Source: Prevotellaceae bacterium
GTDB taxonomy: Bacteria; Bacteroidota; Bacteroidia; Bacteroidales; Bacteroidaceae
Assembly (NCBI GenBank): GCA_003150315.1
Contig: QAML01000042.1
Location: 1-58,281, forward strand
DNA length: 58,281 nucleotides
Direction: 5' to 3'
Positions 15,910 to 41,791 of the stretch are shown here, one piece after another. A model generated the notes under the pieces. That model was not told the origin of the DNA, made no database searches, and worked only from the letters and a program-made list of their open reading frames with translations. Every line of letters starts with the position of its first letter. The stretch's first letter is position 1. The translations under genes were made by a program, and so were the position numbers.

Positions 15910-16319
15910 GGGCCAGACTGGATTTGACAGCGGGCAGAGGAAGTATGTAAGCATGCAGTGAGTCGTGAGTTCTCACTATAATCTGAGCTTTCAAGAACTT
16001 AAATGGCGAAAATAACAATTACGCTCTCGCTGCCTGATCGAAGTACAGTAAATCAGCTTTATCCGAAAACAAAGTTTTTCGGACGAGACATCACTCCGAA
16101 GCCGTTGTTCCGAGGCTCGCGGAAATAGTGGTGCACGCAAATCGGGAATAGCGTGAAAAGTGTTGCGTAGTTCATGCGAAATTTCTAATCCGCAACTAAG
16201 GTTTGCAACAATGTGAATGCGTGCCGCACGTTGCAGACACAAAAATTCCCGGCAGGCTAAGCATGTAGAAAGCATGGTTTTTCCCCGTTTGGACGAGAGT
16301 TCGATTCTCTCCTGGTCCA
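15910..16319 (+). ncRNA. ssrA: Transfer-messenger RNA (tmRNA)
   Basis: Rescues stalled ribosomes and tags the nascent protein for proteolysis. The 5' end GGGCCAGACTGGATTTGACA pairs its first seven bases with CTGGTCC at 16312-16318 (one G.U) to form the acceptor stem, and the T-arm TTCGATTC is at 16300-16307. A resume codon GGC at 16005 opens the tag GENNNYALAA, with TGA at 16035-16037. The CCA end is not encoded. The tag has three Asn rather than the one or two I recall for relatives. A small hairpin with a GCGA loop (16326-16339) follows and may help termination. Confidence 0.95.
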
Positions 16320-16373
16320 CTTTTTCCGGAAGCGATTCCGATTTGGTTTTATAAAAAATATTCTATTGTATAT

Positions 16374-36832: not shown

Positions 36833-36876
36833 AAGTCCGTGTTTCCCTATCCTCGGAAATACGGACTTTACTTTTT
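36833..36876 (+). terminator. Terminator after the GH2 gene, abutting the convergent methyltransferase stop
   Basis: AAGTCCGTGTTTCC pairs with GGAAATACGGACTT across a 7-base loop, then TACTTTTT. The T-rich end overlaps the last codons of the opposite-strand gene. Confidence 0.8.
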
Positions 36877-37668
36877 CCCGCACAACTCCCAGAACGCCAC
36901 TGCCGAAGCGGCTGCCACATTCAGCGAATCCACTCCGTGCATCATGGGAATCCTTACCACATAGTCGGAATTTGATATGGTTTCATCGGGAAGTCCTTCG
37001 CCTTCCGTTCCCATTATTATTGCCAGTTTCGGTTCGGACTTCAGGCTCTCGTTGTCAAGCGTTACGGATTTTTCAGTCAATGCCATTGATGCAATTCTGA
37101 ATCCCAAAGCCCGCAATTCGGTTATGGGATTTTCCGTCCATGTCCACGGAACGAGGAAAACAGACCCCATGGAAACTCTAACGGCACGCCGCGTCATCGG
37201 GTCGCAAGAGTTTTTTGTCAGCACAACGGCATCAACGCCCAAAGCCGCCGCAGAGCGAAAAATGGCACCTATATTGGTGGAATCGACCACGTTATCAATG
37301 ACCACAATCCTTTCGGCATTTCTGCAAACATCCTCAAGTTTTCTGCAAGGTCGGCGACGCATGGCACACAACACCCCACGCGTAAGTTCATAACCCGTAA
37401 GGCGCGAAAGCAGTGCGCGGTCGCCCGTATAAACAGGCACATCGCCACAGCTGTTTATGATGTCGGCGGCATCGCCGTCAATGTGCCTGCGTTCACACAA
37501 GAGCGACACTGGTTCATAACCTGCCCCAAGGGCCACACGTATCACCTTGGGACTTTCGGCAATGAACAGTCCTCCTTCTTCCGCGCCACGGCGCAGCTGC
37601 CGCTCCGTAAGACGGCAGAAAACTTCCGCACCGGGGAAGTCAAGCGATGATATTTCAACTACCGGCAT
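36868..37668 (-). CDS. SpoU/TrmH-family RNA 2'-O-methyltransferase
   Basis: 266 residues. An N-terminal substrate-binding domain (about 1-105) precedes a SPOUT methyltransferase knot with the three SpoU motifs: VVIDNVVDSTNIGAIFRSAAALGVDAVVL, KLAIIMGTEGEGLPDE and VRIPMMHGVDSLNVAAASAVAFWE. The family methylates ribose 2'-OH groups in 23S rRNA or tRNA; which RNA cannot be decided. The start at 37668 (MPVVEISSL) is used; an ATG eight codons upstream is possible. It is convergent with the GH2 gene, and its stop codon lies within the terminator region. Confidence 0.92.
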   Translation of the reverse strand: MPVVEISSLDFPGAEVFCRLTERQLRRGAEEGGLFIAESPKVIRVALGAGYEPVSLLCERRHIDGDAADIINSCGDVPVYTGDRALLSRLTGYELTRGVLCAMRRRPCRKLEDVCRNAERIVVIDNVVDSTNIGAIFRSAAALGVDAVVLTKNSCDPMTRRAVRVSMGSVFLVPWTWTENPITELRALGFRIASMALTEKSVTLDNESLKSEPKLAIIMGTEGEGLPDETISNSDYVVRIPMMHGVDSLNVAAASAVAFWELCGKK

Positions 37669-37756
37669 TTTCAAACTTTTTATTTGCTGCAAAAGTAATC
37701 AATTGCTTTGTCGGCACAAAACAAAAGCCTTCCCCAAACTCCCCGAAGAATATATT

Positions 37757-37832
37757 TGATGTAGCAAAAACTACATAGGACGTAGAAAAAATTATATCAG
37801 ACATAATTTTTTCTACATCAGACCTTTTTTCA
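37757..37832. repeat. Second modular repeat family, copy 1 (left edge of island)
   Basis: Units GATGTAGCAAAAACTACAT, AGGACGTAGAAAAAATTAT, ATCAGACATAATTTTTTC, then TACATCAGACCTTTTTT. ATTAT/ATAAT and CTACAT/ATGTAG arms make nested palindromes ending in a T run. Nearly the same sequence recurs at 41896-41982, in the same orientation. The ACATAGGACGTAG unit resembles the first unit of repeat copy G (ACATAGGACTTCG), so the two families are probably related. Confidence 0.83.
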
Positions 37833-38005
37833 CCGCCTTGTAACCCATTGCAAGACAAATCGTTATAAGATTATCGCGCAGGTAGTGTAAAACGTTGTTC
37901 TCCAATGGTTTGTGCAAATTTTATGGAACGTTGGCATACGTCTTGAATATTTCCTTTTGCAAGGCAACGCCAAAACACGTGCCTTTGCAAAAAACTGTGT
38001 GATAA

Positions 38006-38038
38006 TTTGTTTGTTATGGAAAATAAATCATAAATTTG
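38006..38038 (+). promoter_or_regulatory. Promoter of the structured RNA
   Basis: TTTG at 38006-38009, 21-base spacer, TAAATTTG at 38031-38038: among the best matches in the window to the Bacteroidetes consensus. There is no open reading frame downstream before a terminator, so it drives an untranslated RNA. Confidence 0.7.
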
Positions 38039-38446
38039 CTGTCGGTTCTCAACCGACAGCCGTATGCGGCGCAGGGGCGTAAGCCCAGAACGCCGCTGCG
38101 GAAATGTAAACCCACGCCGAAAGGCCGGCACAAGCCGGCTGTGAGGGCGGGAGGTGAGAGCCGCAACATATTTAAGGCGTTTACTGCGCTTTGTTCTTGA
38201 CGGACTGAAATCTGGCAGTTTCAAATCTTCTCAAAGACAAATGCAACGGTAGATGCCTGCGGGATGTGTATATACGCATTCTTTTTACGGGGTTTTGTGT
38301 CCGCAATGCACGGACAGGAACTCTGTGAAAAGGTGTATCAGTACATATCGGCGTGGGCTTCTGCGTTGCTCGTTTCGAGAAGATGGGCAATGCCAGAGCC
38401 TCAGTTCGTGGGACGAGTAACGGTTTGACTCCCACGTCTTTTTTTT
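38039..38446 (+). ncRNA. Unidentified structured RNA of about 400 nt
   Basis: There is no convincing reading frame, but the structure is dense. Hairpins: CTGTCGGTT/AACCGACAG (38039-38059); GCGGCG/CGCCGC (38066-38096) enclosing GGGC-GTAA-GCCC; GCC-GAAA-GGC (38116-38125); GCCGGC-ACAA-GCCGGC (38124-38139). These lie inside TGCGG/CCGCA (38097-38165). In the 3' half: a near-perfect ATGTGTATATACGCAT palindrome, TGTCCG/CGGACA around 38299-38317, GCGTTGC/GCAATGC with an inner CTCG-TTT-CGAG, and a terminator CGTGGGA/TCCCACG (38407-38436) with an 8-T run. Two of the tetraloops are of the GNRA type. A 9-base match CCCACGCCG (38111) with CGGCGTGGG (38349) could close the two halves. It lacks the conserved RNase P, 6S, SRP and tmRNA signatures. 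The transcript start would be at or a few bases into the first hairpin. Confidence 0.65.
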
Positions 38447-38518
38447 ATGCTGCAAAACCATGTACGAATAATAACAACCGCCTTTTCGGGAGCCAAAGGC
38501 ATAAAAACATATTGTAAT

Positions 38519-38644
38519 ATGCTTAAAGTTGATTTTCTAATTCCTATTCCAGAAAGAAAACTTGTAAACTTCGATGATGTCGTAAAAATATTAGGCATCA
38601 ACATCAAAGAAACAGTAATCAGAAATACCACATTTCGGCACTAG
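38519..38644 (+). CDS. Doubtful small ORF between the structured RNA and the lipoprotein genes
   Basis: 41 codons starting MLKVDFLIPIPERKLVNF; a longer version of the same frame starts at 38447, inside the sequence directly after the RNA terminator. The composition looks protein-like (alternating hydrophobic and charged residues), but I recognise no family and see no promoter. It could be a remnant of a larger gene. Confidence 0.22.
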   Translation: MLKVDFLIPIPERKLVNFDDVVKILGINIKETVIRNTTFRH

Positions 38645-38728
38645 TTGACAAAATGTTTTTGTGGAAAATGTTTCGAAATATACAAAGCCCAATACTTGTG
38701 AATTTCTTAAATTGGAAAAATATATAAT

Positions 38729-39358
38729 ATGAAATCAATTACAAAATCATGCGCCATGATATTAGCATTCACCATTTCAGTGGCATCATGCGGCGGCAAC
38801 AGCGATAAAAAAATCCATATACAAGGTCTGCTATTGAACAAAACAAAAATAACCTTGGAAAAAGGTACAAGCGAAACGTTGACAGCAACAATAAGCCCAA
38901 TTGGGGCGGCGAAGAATGCGCTTGTATGGAAAACAAACAACGAACATATTGTGGCGGTATCGTCAACAGGAGAAGTTTCTGCCTTGAAAAATGGGCAAGC
39001 TGTTGTAACTGTTTCTGACGAGACCGAAAAAGTCTACGCTTCGTGCGATGTAAATGTTATAACCACTGTAATCGGCGTACTCGTAAATGCTGAGGTCATG
39101 TTGGCTGTTGGAGAAAAACAGCGGTTGACTGCTACTGTGTTGCCTGAAGACGCAACAAACACAAATGTTATATGGCAGTCGAGCAATGAAAACATAGTTG
39201 AGGTTTCTGCCGAGGGAACAGTGCTTGGCAAGGCACCAGGAGAAGCTACAGTAACGGTGACAACCATTGACCAAAAGAAACAGGCAAAATGCAGGATTGT
39301 TGTGAAATCCGCTTCTACAATAGAGTATCATCCGTTCGATGAACCTAAACATTGGTAA
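38729..39358 (+). CDS. Lipoprotein with two Ig-like (Big_2) domains
   Basis: 209 residues. Signal II with lipobox ending at Cys21 (SVASC), followed by GGN, so it is probably a surface or outer-membrane lipoprotein. Two bacterial Ig-like group 2 domains follow: about 33-112 (LLLNKTKITLEKGTSETLTA, STGEVSALKNGQAVVTV) and about 113-192 (VNAEVMLAVGEKQRLTA, AEGTVLGKAPGEATVTV). The last 15 residues contain no domain. Such proteins are stalks or adhesin modules; there is no catalytic region. The next lipoprotein gene begins 20 bases after its stop. Base composition here is more AT-rich than in the neighbouring housekeeping genes. Confidence 0.85.
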   Translation: MKSITKSCAMILAFTISVASCGGNSDKKIHIQGLLLNKTKITLEKGTSETLTATISPIGAAKNALVWKTNNEHIVAVSSTGEVSALKNGQAVVTVSDETEKVYASCDVNVITTVIGVLVNAEVMLAVGEKQRLTATVLPEDATNTNVIWQSSNENIVEVSAEGTVLGKAPGEATVTVTTIDQKKQAKCRIVVKSASTIEYHPFDEPKHW

Positions 39359-39378
39359 AACCTCCAAAAACAAGACGA

Positions 39379-40659
39379 ATGAAAAATAAAATTTTATACC
39401 TATTGTTTGCCTTGGCACTGTCATTGTCAAGTTGCGAGCAAGGTCAAGAAAACAACGGCAGAAAGGACATGAAAACTCTTACATTTAAGGTTTCCATATG
39501 CCAATACAATGACAAAGGAACAAAGGTCGCGTCTGACGACAAGAAAACATGGAAAAACGGCGACCAAATATACGTGGCGGTAGATGGCGACAGAAACAAC
39601 CTTTGTGCATTGACATACAATGGAGAAGACTGGATTGTGAGCAAACTTAGCGACAAAGCCGATTTTTCTTCACATGGAAGTCTGAATGCTGTTTACGCCG
39701 AAAAATTAAGGTATGAACAAGGCTATATTTCCACACAAGGCGACATCCTTTATACTGATAAGGGTACTTATGAAACTAAAAACAATATCGTATTCATAAC
39801 CTTGAACATGAATGTACGCCCTGTTGCTAAAATCAAAATAACGGGAATACCTGTCGGCTTTTATATAGAGGGATTAAAAGAATTCAGCTCTGTTGATATT
39901 GGAAACATGACGTGGAACAAAACATATAATGCAGAAAAGCAATACATGGAATCTAATGGGAAAGACGAAACGGTATATTATGGTTTGTTTGACGATTCAA
40001 ATGGCGACTTTACTATAAAACTGCTCAACAGCCAAGGGGCATATTACGAAAAGACATTTGGCTCGAAAAATGTTTTAGCTGGAGACTACATAATAATTGA
40101 TGGTCCACAAAATACTCAAGACTGGAAGTCTTTCATTCCTTTGCAAGGCATAAAGAAAAATCGTGACGTAATGGTTGTGTTAAATGGAAAAGTTTCTGCA
40201 AAAGAGTTATTCTCCTTGATCCCTAAGAATGCCACCAACCATGAAGTTTCTTATTCCTCAGACAACACTTCAGTGGCATCTGTTGATGCCGACGGCAATA
40301 TTTTCGGAAATTCACTGGGTGATGCCGTTATAACGGTTACTACAAAAGATGGAGGCTATTCTTGCAATATAAACATAAAGGTCATAGACATAACCCAATA
40401 TATTTCTGCAGAAATCAAAAAAACAGGAATTTACATTAGCACTACAATATATTACAAAAGGACGTGTACCATAAAAAACATTAGCGATTGCGACATCTTA
40501 GTAAAAAGTTTAAATAACATTGATGTCAACAAGACAGTACCGGCTAATTCCTCATTGGATATTAGTTTCTACAATTACTATGACGTAACCCCTGAAATGA
40601 AAATCACATTTACGTATGATGATACGGTATACAGCATAATAGGCAAATGGGTAATATAG
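39379..40659 (+). CDS. Lipoprotein, fimbrillin-like N-terminal part plus Ig-like segment
   Basis: 426 residues with lipobox ending at Cys19 (SLSSC). The segment TKVASDDKKTWKNGDQIYVAVDGD resembles the start of the Bacteroidales fimbrillin-like fold (Trp-x-x-GDxI), and the N-terminal half is beta-rich. A Big_2-like stretch (YSSDNTSVASVDADGNIFGNSLGDAVITVTT) lies about 293-335, followed by a beta-rich C-terminal domain of unknown type. The ATG at 39379 is used: the lipoprotein signal starts there, whereas an upstream start at 39352 overlaps the preceding gene. It is probably cotranscribed with the Big_2 lipoprotein. The fimbrillin assignment is tentative. Confidence 0.75.
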   Translation: MKNKILYLLFALALSLSSCEQGQENNGRKDMKTLTFKVSICQYNDKGTKVASDDKKTWKNGDQIYVAVDGDRNNLCALTYNGEDWIVSKLSDKADFSSHGSLNAVYAEKLRYEQGYISTQGDILYTDKGTYETKNNIVFITLNMNVRPVAKIKITGIPVGFYIEGLKEFSSVDIGNMTWNKTYNAEKQYMESNGKDETVYYGLFDDSNGDFTIKLLNSQGAYYEKTFGSKNVLAGDYIIIDGPQNTQDWKSFIPLQGIKKNRDVMVVLNGKVSAKELFSLIPKNATNHEVSYSSDNTSVASVDADGNIFGNSLGDAVITVTTKDGGYSCNINIKVIDITQYISAEIKKTGIYISTTIYYKRTCTIKNISDCDILVKSLNNIDVNKTVPANSSLDISFYNYYDVTPEMKITFTYDDTVYSIIGKWVI

Positions 40660-40750: not shown

Positions 40751-41791
40751 ATGAAATACTTCAAATTAAAGGCAACACTCATACTGGCGATGTTGCTTTG
40801 CAACATATCCGCATCTGCGTATACGGAAATATGGCAAAAAGGCATAAGATACACGCTTGGCAATGACGGAACGGCGGCTGTGAGCGGCATATACGGAATA
40901 ACCGCCGCCATAATCCCCGAAAAGGTAACGTACGATGGAATGGAATACGCCGTTACGAGCATAGAGGAATATGCTCTCTCATTCTGCACCAGCCTTGTCT
41001 CTGTTGTCATTCCCTGCTCCGTTACGAGCATTGGGGACGGCACTTTCGGTAATTGCACGGGGCTTGTTTCTGTGGACATTCCAAACTCAGTAACAAGCAT
41101 AGGGGATTATGCTTTCATGGGTTGCGAGAGCCTTGCTTCCATAGTCATCCCCAATTCCGTTACGTACATAGGGGATTATGCTTTCATGGGTTGCGAAAGC
41201 CTTGCTTCGATTGCCATCCCCTGCTCTGTTACAGACATAGGGAGATACGCTTTCTGTGAGTGCAGCAACCTTGCTTCCGTTGTTATCCCTAACTCCGTTG
41301 CGGGCATAGGAGATGCCGCGTTCGCTCGTTGCACGCGCCTTGCCTCCATAGTAATCCCCAACTCCATTACTAGCATAGAGGCATATACTTTCCAAACTTG
41401 TACGGGTCTTGTCTCTGTGGATATTCCCTACTCCGTCACGAGCATAGGAAAAAGTGCTTTCACTAGTTGTAACAGCCTCAAGAAGTTGGTGTGTCATGCC
41501 ACAACGCCCCCTGTATTCGATGATGAGTTTTGGGGTGCCTTTGTTGGTGTTGACAAGAACGAATGCACGCTCTACGTTCCGCAGGAGAGTCTTGATGCCT
41601 ACAAGTCCGCCGCACAGTGGAAGGAGTTCTTCTTCCTTGAGACAGGCATAAAGAACGTGCCGAACACGTCTTCCTCCGCCACGGAGTCGGAACGCTACTC
41701 AACCGATGGCACGCGCCTCGCCTCCCCGCAGAAGGGCATAAACATTATAAGGATGAGCGACGGCACAGTGAAGAAAGTGCTTGTGAAATAA
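40751..41791 (+). CDS. BspA-type leucine-rich repeat (LRR_5) surface protein
   Basis: 346 residues. Signal peptide about 1-23; then eight 23-residue TpLRR/BspA units of the form VTSIGDYAFMGCESLASIVIPNS (about 70-260); a short capping segment KKLVCHATTPPVFDDEFWG; and a tail YSTDGTRLASPQKGINIIR...KKVLVK that resembles the C-terminal sequence seen on many exported Prevotella-type proteins. Relatives bind fibronectin, fibrinogen or host cells. Neighbouring units are nearly identical at DNA level (41093-41161 and 41162-41230), so repeat number may vary by recombination. Last gene of the lipoprotein-LRR island. Confidence 0.9.
   Translation: MKYFKLKATLILAMLLCNISASAYTEIWQKGIRYTLGNDGTAAVSGIYGITAAIIPEKVTYDGMEYAVTSIEEYALSFCTSLVSVVIPCSVTSIGDGTFGNCTGLVSVDIPNSVTSIGDYAFMGCESLASIVIPNSVTYIGDYAFMGCESLASIAIPCSVTDIGRYAFCECSNLASVVIPNSVAGIGDAAFARCTRLASIVIPNSITSIEAYTFQTCTGLVSVDIPYSVTSIGKSAFTSCNSLKKLVCHATTPPVFDDEFWGAFVGVDKNECTLYVPQESLDAYKSAAQWKEFFFLETGIKNVPNTSSSATESERYSTDGTRLASPQKGINIIRMSDGTVKKVLVK

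Follow-up and report, generated by a model that had tools for sequence, protein, structure and literature searches.

What is the strongly folded RNA encoded at 38039-38446 (+), and what does it do? The window, that is, the whole 58,281-nt stretch of Prevotellaceae DNA analysed here, carries at these positions a folded RNA that starts directly 3′ of a promoter and closes with a run of eight U residues. A reading made from the sequence alone (the sequence-only reading) had taken it for a free-standing RNA of about 400 nt. The comparisons described below incline us towards a different answer, namely that the element is an mRNA 5′ leader, one copy of a large family of cis-acting RNAs of the Bacteroidales, and that it works as a transcription attenuator. 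The family and its structure are well supported; we infer that the leader is transcribed, that it controls termination and that a trigger acts on it. To our knowledge, few cis-regulatory RNAs have been described in the Bacteroidales, which are major residents of the gut and the rumen.

The promoter (38010-38038, +) consists of TTTG at 38010-38013 and TAAATTTG at 38031-38038, and we take it to be of the Bacteroidales type from the motif TAnnTTTG. That a promoter precedes the element had been proposed from the sequence, and the family bears this out. A TAnnTTTG box lies within 190 nt 5′ of helix P1 in 96 of 117 copies, the count being limited to those of the 147 distinct copies in which P1 could be located; 11.0 were expected from mononucleotide shuffles. 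A sigma-70 scan gave no site on the + strand, which is to be expected of another promoter type. The proposed strong structure was likewise confirmed. The minimum free energy of 38039-38446 is -194.2 kcal/mol, against -135.8 (sd 6.05) for 100 shuffles, none of which folded as well (z -9.65). The opposite strand also folds well (z -7.05), since the element approximates one long imperfect hairpin. GUAA and ACAA loops are contained in the minimum free energy fold, and GCCGAAAGGC is found in the sequence. The GNRA-type and ACAA hairpins pointed out earlier (GUAA, GAAA and ACAA, at about 38060-38145) are therefore present, but they lie inside a segment that is not conserved between copies. This variable 5′ segment with its local hairpins (38039-38175, +) was delimited by between-copy comparison; among the 96 copies that have a promoter box, its 10-90% length range is 45-103.5 nt.

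A simple terminator scan found nothing at the element, because the hairpin that ends at the U run (38439-38446, +) encloses about 73 nt in the window copy, which is unusual for an intrinsic terminator. The hairpin is backed by covariation, and 145 of 149 distinct copies have five or more T in their final 9 nt; the sequence-only reading was right to see a terminator-like structure here. The interval that it gave holds a real structured RNA and was nevertheless drawn too short, as the conserved unit runs past the U run to about 38500. Its view that no convincing reading frame is present also agrees with the data. Open reading frames overlapping 38039-38446 reach at most 56 aa on the + strand; on the - strand they reach 117 aa, with a TTG start. 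Across the family, a 5′ reading frame occurs in 67 of 96 copies, compared with 61.1 (sd 2.8) in dinucleotide shuffles, and ATG is seen 139 times against 142.7. Among the 25 peptides listed, common residues occur only where a frame continues into the conserved P1 RNA. Leader-peptide attenuation was rejected on these grounds: the excess over dinucleotide shuffles is slight, mononucleotide shuffles having given a larger one, 67 against 54.0.

The absence of a recognised family, also claimed earlier, was upheld with the covariance models of Rfam 15, which gave no match at gathering score on the element in the window and none overlapping it at 40 further loci (two sets of 20). A permissive scan of 37700-38740 returned five sub-threshold matches (E 2.1 to 9.3, far below gathering scores), of which two chance matches (E 6.5 and 8.3) overlap the element; in a permissive scan of locus L157 no match overlapped it. 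The window's sole match at gathering level, a tmRNA gene with the tag peptide GENNNYALAA, lies at 15910-16322 (+). No description of the RNA was found in the literature searched, which took in few subscription papers. An attenuator leader is a known kind of regulator; this family of them appears to be new, unless it coincides with the Bacteroides-2 motif.

Relatives of the element are numerous. Blastn against 36 whole genomes, reached via loci of the neighbouring methylase (36 Bacteroidales picks out of 80 loci), gave matches in 24, mostly as two blocks (query about 137-245 and 313-420). With nhmmer, copies were found in 33 loci besides the window, with a core of 227-299 nt where it is in one piece. 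R1, a covariance model of the 3′ domain built from 33 sequences, matched 38 of 149 genomes in an order sample (E <= 1e-3), 38 of 61 in a family sample (E <= 1e-4) and 2 of 296 in a phylum sample (E <= 1e-4), where one of the two is the centre genome. Filtering was stricter for the larger samples, and the E-values that such models give are only approximate. Repetition in Bacteroidales genomes, which had been put down as an unverified impression, is thereby borne out. A genome may hold up to 13 copies, which in G146 lie in 13 separate places; the R1 counts of G010 and G174 in the order sample include opposite-strand shadows. The 38 family genomes together gave 169 R1 matches, which may include a few shadows. 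As DNA, one copy used as blastn query reached 7 of 99 order genomes, its own included, compared with 38 of 149 for the R1 model.

From 214 R1 matches, 147 distinct ones were left after removal of repeats and of those without a U run; this set keeps two opposite-strand shadows (L204, L211) and two weak extra matches (L193, L236). With no U-run filter and with the shadows removed, the count is 149 distinct copies. The 3′ domain (38343-38445 in the window) is nearly self-complementary, and many copies are weakly matched by R1 on the opposite strand (22.7 bits in the window). A compact class has a 3′ domain of 83-97 nt and lower R1 scores, and resides mostly in other genomes. R2, an independent model of the 5′ domain trained on 32 sequences, was applied to 99 loci outside its training set (L200 was left out of this run, as was L094 from alignment A5). 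Each of its 76 matches with E < 1e-5, in 75 loci, is followed on the same strand by an R1 match at a distance of 26-107 nt, as judged by eye, and both halves of the element therefore travel together. Loci without an R2 match are mostly of the compact class. Partial matches in DNA with no listed gene were found on plasmids of P. dorei and P. vulgatus (25% of the query, 73.6% identity) and of B. finegoldii (8% of the query, 94.3% identity); phage records searched with the element gave no match.

The surroundings of the copies bear on how the RNA is used. The open reading frame that takes up most of the next 900 nt was determined for 132 copies, made up of the window copy, 31 early loci and 100 fetched regions; it is in the sense orientation in 127, antisense in four and absent in one. 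The ATG of a frame of about 60 aa or more was located in 112 copies, at most 15 nt short of the match end and at most 350 nt beyond it; the median lies 72 nt past that end. The element is therefore most likely an mRNA 5′ leader. The neighbourhood of the homologues thus argues against the free-standing 400-nt RNA for catalysis or scaffolding that had been suggested, as do the conserved arm past the U run and the attenuator-like competing helices described below; the stand-alone reading is probably wrong. In the window, a 41-aa frame (38519-38644, +), the in-frame tail of a 65-aa frame at 38447-38644, starts 75 nt past the R1 match end, close to the family median of 72 nt. It has no Pfam match and may be a remnant. 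The first sizeable frame begins 284 nt from the element; downstream on the + strand are two Big_2 proteins (38729-39358 and 39352-40659) and a BspA-type LRR_5 protein (40751-41791). The other flank is formed by a SpoU-type methylase gene at 36868-37692, on the - strand, opposite to the element. Between this gene and the RNA lies an inverted repeat (37779-37819) with 20-nt arms, 90% complementary, and a 1-nt gap.

The conserved part of the RNA was resolved into a series of arms, all on the + strand. Arm 0 (GGCGUUUAC, 38176-38184) is the 5′ strand of P1. It is followed by the three 5′ segments of a long-range stem, stem A (38201-38232): CGGACUGA at 38201-08, UCUGGCA at 38211-17 and AUCUUCUC at 38225-32. 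GCAAC (38243-47) and arm 1 (GUAGAUGCC, 38249-57) together span 38243-38257 and have as partner either arm 0 or arm 2 and its neighbours. The middle hairpin (38261-38349) varies in length and sequence and is reduced to a few loop bases in many compact copies. Arm 2 (GCGUGGG, 38351-38357) has one partner upstream, on the arm 1 side, and one downstream, arm 3. The 5′ strand of helix P5 (GUUGCUCGU, 38365-38373) pairs with its 3′ strand (ACGAGUAAC, 38413-38421), and between these strands lie the 3′ segments of stem A (38377-38408): GAGAAGAU at 38377-84, UGCCAGA at 38391-97 and UCAGUUCG at 38401-08. The window pairs of stem A are CGGACUGA:UCAGUUCG, UCUGGCA:UGCCAGA and AUCUUCUC:GAGAAGAU. Arm 3 (GACUCCCACGU, 38427-38437) pairs with arm 2, in the terminator-like hairpin, or with arm 4. 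The latter is the loop GGGAG (38488-92) of a downstream hairpin (GCCUUUUCGGGAGCCAAAGGC, 38480-38500) and complements CUCCC of arm 3, so that 3:4 in the window is CUCCC:GGGAG, formed across the U run.

Covariation was found, in stems other than the GNRA and ACAA hairpins of the sequence-only reading. In alignment A1 (33 sequences), the basal helix 2:3 (GCGUGRG:CYCACGC) is paired in 99.6% of cells and P5 (UUGCUCGUU:RACGAGYAA) in 99.2%, with double changes in four of the eight pairs of P5. When the partners were slid by 1-3 columns, pairing over the whole tested structure, which also included a helix P4, fell from 89.8% to 40-52%. Two candidates were given up. A helix P4 in the 3′ domain was paired in 70.9% of cells (80.8% in an extended form), and stem A explains it better; a compact terminator, GUGGGA:UCCCAC, as the conserved hairpin was paired in 83.5%. 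RNAalifold on the 5′ domain alone gave no helix at default settings and a P1-like stem at others. A MAFFT/RNAalifold fold of the whole element showed little structure, as we read it because the helices cross and the lengths vary.

Because of these length differences, an alignment-free test was used, in which the best helix between an arm and its flank within a copy was compared with that formed with the flank of another copy. These cognate-versus-swapped tests were carried out on the 147 distinct matches, two of them opposite-strand shadows. Two segments, which belong to stem A, find their match in the 5′ half of the same copy: the 10 nt that precede GGGC (z 25.5, n 125) and the 9 nt that precede GCC (z 14.4, n 145). 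Arm 3 matches its own downstream 120 nt (3:4; z 18.1, n 138). The three named controls gave z of -0.4 to 0.6 (0.4 for 3:4). A scan with 8-mer windows over 121 copies with a 3′ domain of at least 100 nt (8 shuffles each) had its upstream peaks at the three stem A segments, with z of 13-14 (offsets 32-36), 12 (offset 48) and 39 (offset 60). It also gave a downstream peak of 11 at offset 84 and upstream values of 3-6 at offsets 0-20; unrelated windows reach a z of about 3.

Helix by helix, 2:3 gave z 13.0 (n 136) and P5 z 14.9 in the long class (n 121) and 4.2 in the compact class. For 3:4 the values were 16.2 (long) and 4.7 (compact), and 83 of 138 copies (70 of 115 long, 13 of 23 compact) contain an uninterrupted helix of 6 bp or more. 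The pairing of arm 1 (CUCACG) with arm 2 makes a short hairpin in compact copies (z 4.2, n 24), with at least 6 bp in 20 of the 24 and 17 distinct arm pairs, for example ATTCGTGGGC/GCTCACGAAT; in the long class 1:2 is weak (z 2.9). P1, the helix 0:1, is weakly supported (z 2.7 in the compact class, n 20; 1.9 in the long class, n 17). At column pair 17:109 of A1, 26 sequences have GC, 6 have AU and 1 has GU. Four of the six with AU (L095, L097, L103 and L104, scored by eye, L095 and L097 being near-identical) have a downstream loop that agrees with the changed base as well; L100 has no loop change and L101 has one only further downstream. Such mirroring is expected if base 109 must fit both partners.

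Comparison of the copies shows the order promoter, leader, U run and sense reading frame, as well as conservation of helices 2:3, P5, stem A and 3:4. Arm 2 has arms 1 and 3 as competing partners and arm 3 has arms 2 and 4; P5 and stem A occupy crossing or overlapping strands. When 2:3 and P5 were forced together, with no pseudoknots allowed, the median cost was 9.9 kcal/mol over the free fold (57 copies), and the free fold contained P5 in one of the 57. This cost points to two distinct, competing folds. The comparative data thus support the view that the covariation-backed helices, an antiterminator-like stem, a terminator-like hairpin and 3:4, cannot all form at once. A kissing complex of two hairpins was considered and dropped, since the loop segments are nested and two folds compete.

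Given a U run in 145 of 149 copies and the competing arms, the simplest reading is a terminator (2:3, P5 and the U run) set against an antiterminator (stem A and 1:2). In the first fold, arm 0 would hold arm 1, arm 2 would pair with arm 3, and P5 would form; this hairpin and the U run would then stop RNA polymerase. In the second, the 5′ half would capture the 3′ half in one long hairpin, stem A continued by 1:2, which would leave arm 3 free and let the polymerase read through. After readthrough, arm 4, in the hairpin past the U run, would take arm 3, and the terminator hairpin could not re-form. The fold would be chosen, presumably at P1, by a signal common to many unrelated operons, be it a small molecule, a protein or an RNA acting in trans.

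Arm 4 is the feature on which the main rival turns. It lies past the U run and cannot act before it is made, which suits a role in readthrough or in the control of translation better than one in termination; translation or stability may just as well be what it serves. The element might then be a switch of translation or mRNA stability, a reading that we regard as unlikely. The U run would be no terminator, the leader would always be transcribed, and the choice of 2:3 or 3:4 would determine whether the start codon, about 72 nt downstream, is accessible, or would expose an RNase site. Conservation of arm 4 past the U run (z 18.1) and near the ATG speaks for such a switch, as a pure attenuator has no need of it; the U run directly 3′ of arm 3 in 145 of 149 copies is left unexplained by it. 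We prefer the attenuator reading.

Attenuators of the riboswitch and T-box type are terminator/antiterminator leaders. Like them, the element is placed as a 5′ leader, with mutually exclusive helices, a U run and a sense reading frame downstream. Unlike them, it has no gathering match in Rfam 15 in the window or in the copies scanned, no shared pathway downstream, an extra conserved arm past the U run and a long-range stem of three segments. The chain of alternating arms, the breadth of targets and the copy number seem unusual. We put forward only tentatively the wider proposal that the family forms a large new class of RNA switches, which might be riboswitches that sense some general physiological signal. 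It would gate unrelated operons, often with exported proteins, up to 13 times per genome, through the alternating arms 0:1, 1:2, 2:3 and 3:4, the last arm, beyond the terminator, securing read-through. If so, a leader placed before surface, signalling, restriction and capsule-type regulator genes would point to an unnamed global signal at the RNA level. The many copies and the competing helices offer direct, testable predictions.

The downstream genes are diverse. Among 106 of the 112 first reading frames that were scanned (E <= 0.01; for L083 a frame other than the one listed was taken), LRR_5 and Big_2 were each found four times and LytTR and antiterm_UpxY three times each. Among 87 of 108 further operon frames (second and third genes, E <= 0.001), LRR_5 was found five times, protein kinase and FHA three times each and Eco57I methylase twice. 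Neither set, the 106 first genes or the 87 further ones, showed a shared theme that would point to the signal, nor did a ligand theme emerge in them. A signal-peptide rule, a crude one made for this analysis, fits 50 of 90 first genes compared with 105 of 411 other frames of the same loci (Fisher P 7.5e-8), so that exported proteins are enriched among the first genes by this rule. As to a defence role, 3 of the 87 further operon genes match kinase-type PADLOC models, nothing general.

The UpxY matches raise another possibility, namely that the element is a target of processive antitermination by NusG paralogues of the UpxY/LoaP type, as in capsule operon leaders, the RNA modifying the polymerase. 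EAR RNA (epsC, RF01735), the leader targets of LoaP and HK022 put are structured leaders that let polymerase pass terminators. A likeness to these is that an UpxY-family match lies directly downstream, on the same strand, of at least 8 of the 169 R1 matches in the 38 family genomes (by eye; five of the eight over the family cut-off), and the unrelated downstream genes would suit a device that acts at the level of the polymerase. Among the matches listed, no UpxY gene follows the other 161, and UpxY is on this count a lead but not a general explanation; UpxY genes are, moreover, present in genomes without an R1 match (for example G478 and G481), and processive antitermination has no need of mutually exclusive arms. 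Unlike the EAR, LoaP and put leaders, the element has no Rfam match, extends beyond polysaccharide operons and has a terminator-like hairpin built in. We consider this explanation improbable. The R1 matches 5′ of UpxY-family genes are at G508:C12, G508:C19, G523:C15, G513:C9, G493:C9, G493:C187, G486:C8 and G517:C30; several of the UpxY-family matches lie in open frames of about 250 aa, which exceed the 164-position model.

Less probable again is a stand-alone small RNA of about 400 nt, acting in trans from its own promoter and terminator and lying upstream of genes by chance. The element does have a promoter and a U run of its own, and multicopy small RNA families are known in Bacteroides: FopS/GibS (PMC11697453) is a multicopy family of Bacteroidaceae RNAs of about 65-70 nt with sigma-ABfr promoters, which act in trans. 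The element resembles it in being multicopy, in its type of promoter and in occurring in Bacteroidaceae. Identity with FopS was rejected, as the core of the element alone takes about 227-299 nt and sits in cis, whereas the FopS RNAs have about 65-70 nt; against any stand-alone RNA, the next frame is in sense in 127 of 132 copies and arm 4 lies outside the supposed transcript. A mobile or selfish DNA repeat (a MITE-like palindrome or a retron-like RNA) is disfavoured as very improbable: the element is multicopy and near-palindromic, R1 weakly matching itself on the opposite strand, and it turns up in part on three plasmids and as an exact motif on one viral contig, but the sense bias, the promoter, the U run and the compensatory changes in competing helices oppose it, and neither transposase nor reverse transcriptase is among the 25 most frequent families in the 106 first genes or the 87 operon genes.

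Other RNAs of the order were compared with the element. Bacteroidales-1, Bacteroides-1 and Bacteroides-2 are candidate structured RNAs of the same order, and Bacteroides-2 is given as lacking an Rfam number and as coming from one sequenced organism only (PMC2864571). The first two, which have Rfam numbers, gave no match to the element; Bacteroides-2 might be the same RNA, although its report from a single organism is a difference. DUF805 RNA (RF03081) is, like the element, a multicopy cis-regulatory motif in Bacteroidales, and was found in 7 of 26 genomes; it differs in its length of 68 nt and in sequence and fold. The DUF805 motif was probably described in a 2017 survey. DUF805 RNA was rejected as the 3′ part of the element, since an R1 match with E < 0.1 is absent in 17 of 18 DUF805 regions with filters off (16 regions being over the DUF805 cut-off, and L284 having a 10-bit partial R1 match, E 0.37). 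DUF805 RNA was found just 3′ of a copy of the element at L153 (1389-1457), L161 (1712-1777) and L292, two leader elements in tandem.

Some further features of the loci were noted on reading them. LytTR-like first frames occur in L084, L096 and L247, and in L084 and L096 an FHA-like gene is next. The exact motif match on an 85.7-kb contig from a viral collection (L299, 539-8970), possibly host DNA, lies just 5′ of genes; by eye, their translations resemble an EF-Tu-type GTPase, an Hsp70-like protein and a HerA-like ATPase. A small helix-turn-helix-like protein (about 70-100 aa, with a motif near RSVTWFAxxLxCxRxNVY) recurs right 3′ of the RNA, in L089, L111, L083, L214, L225 and L269.
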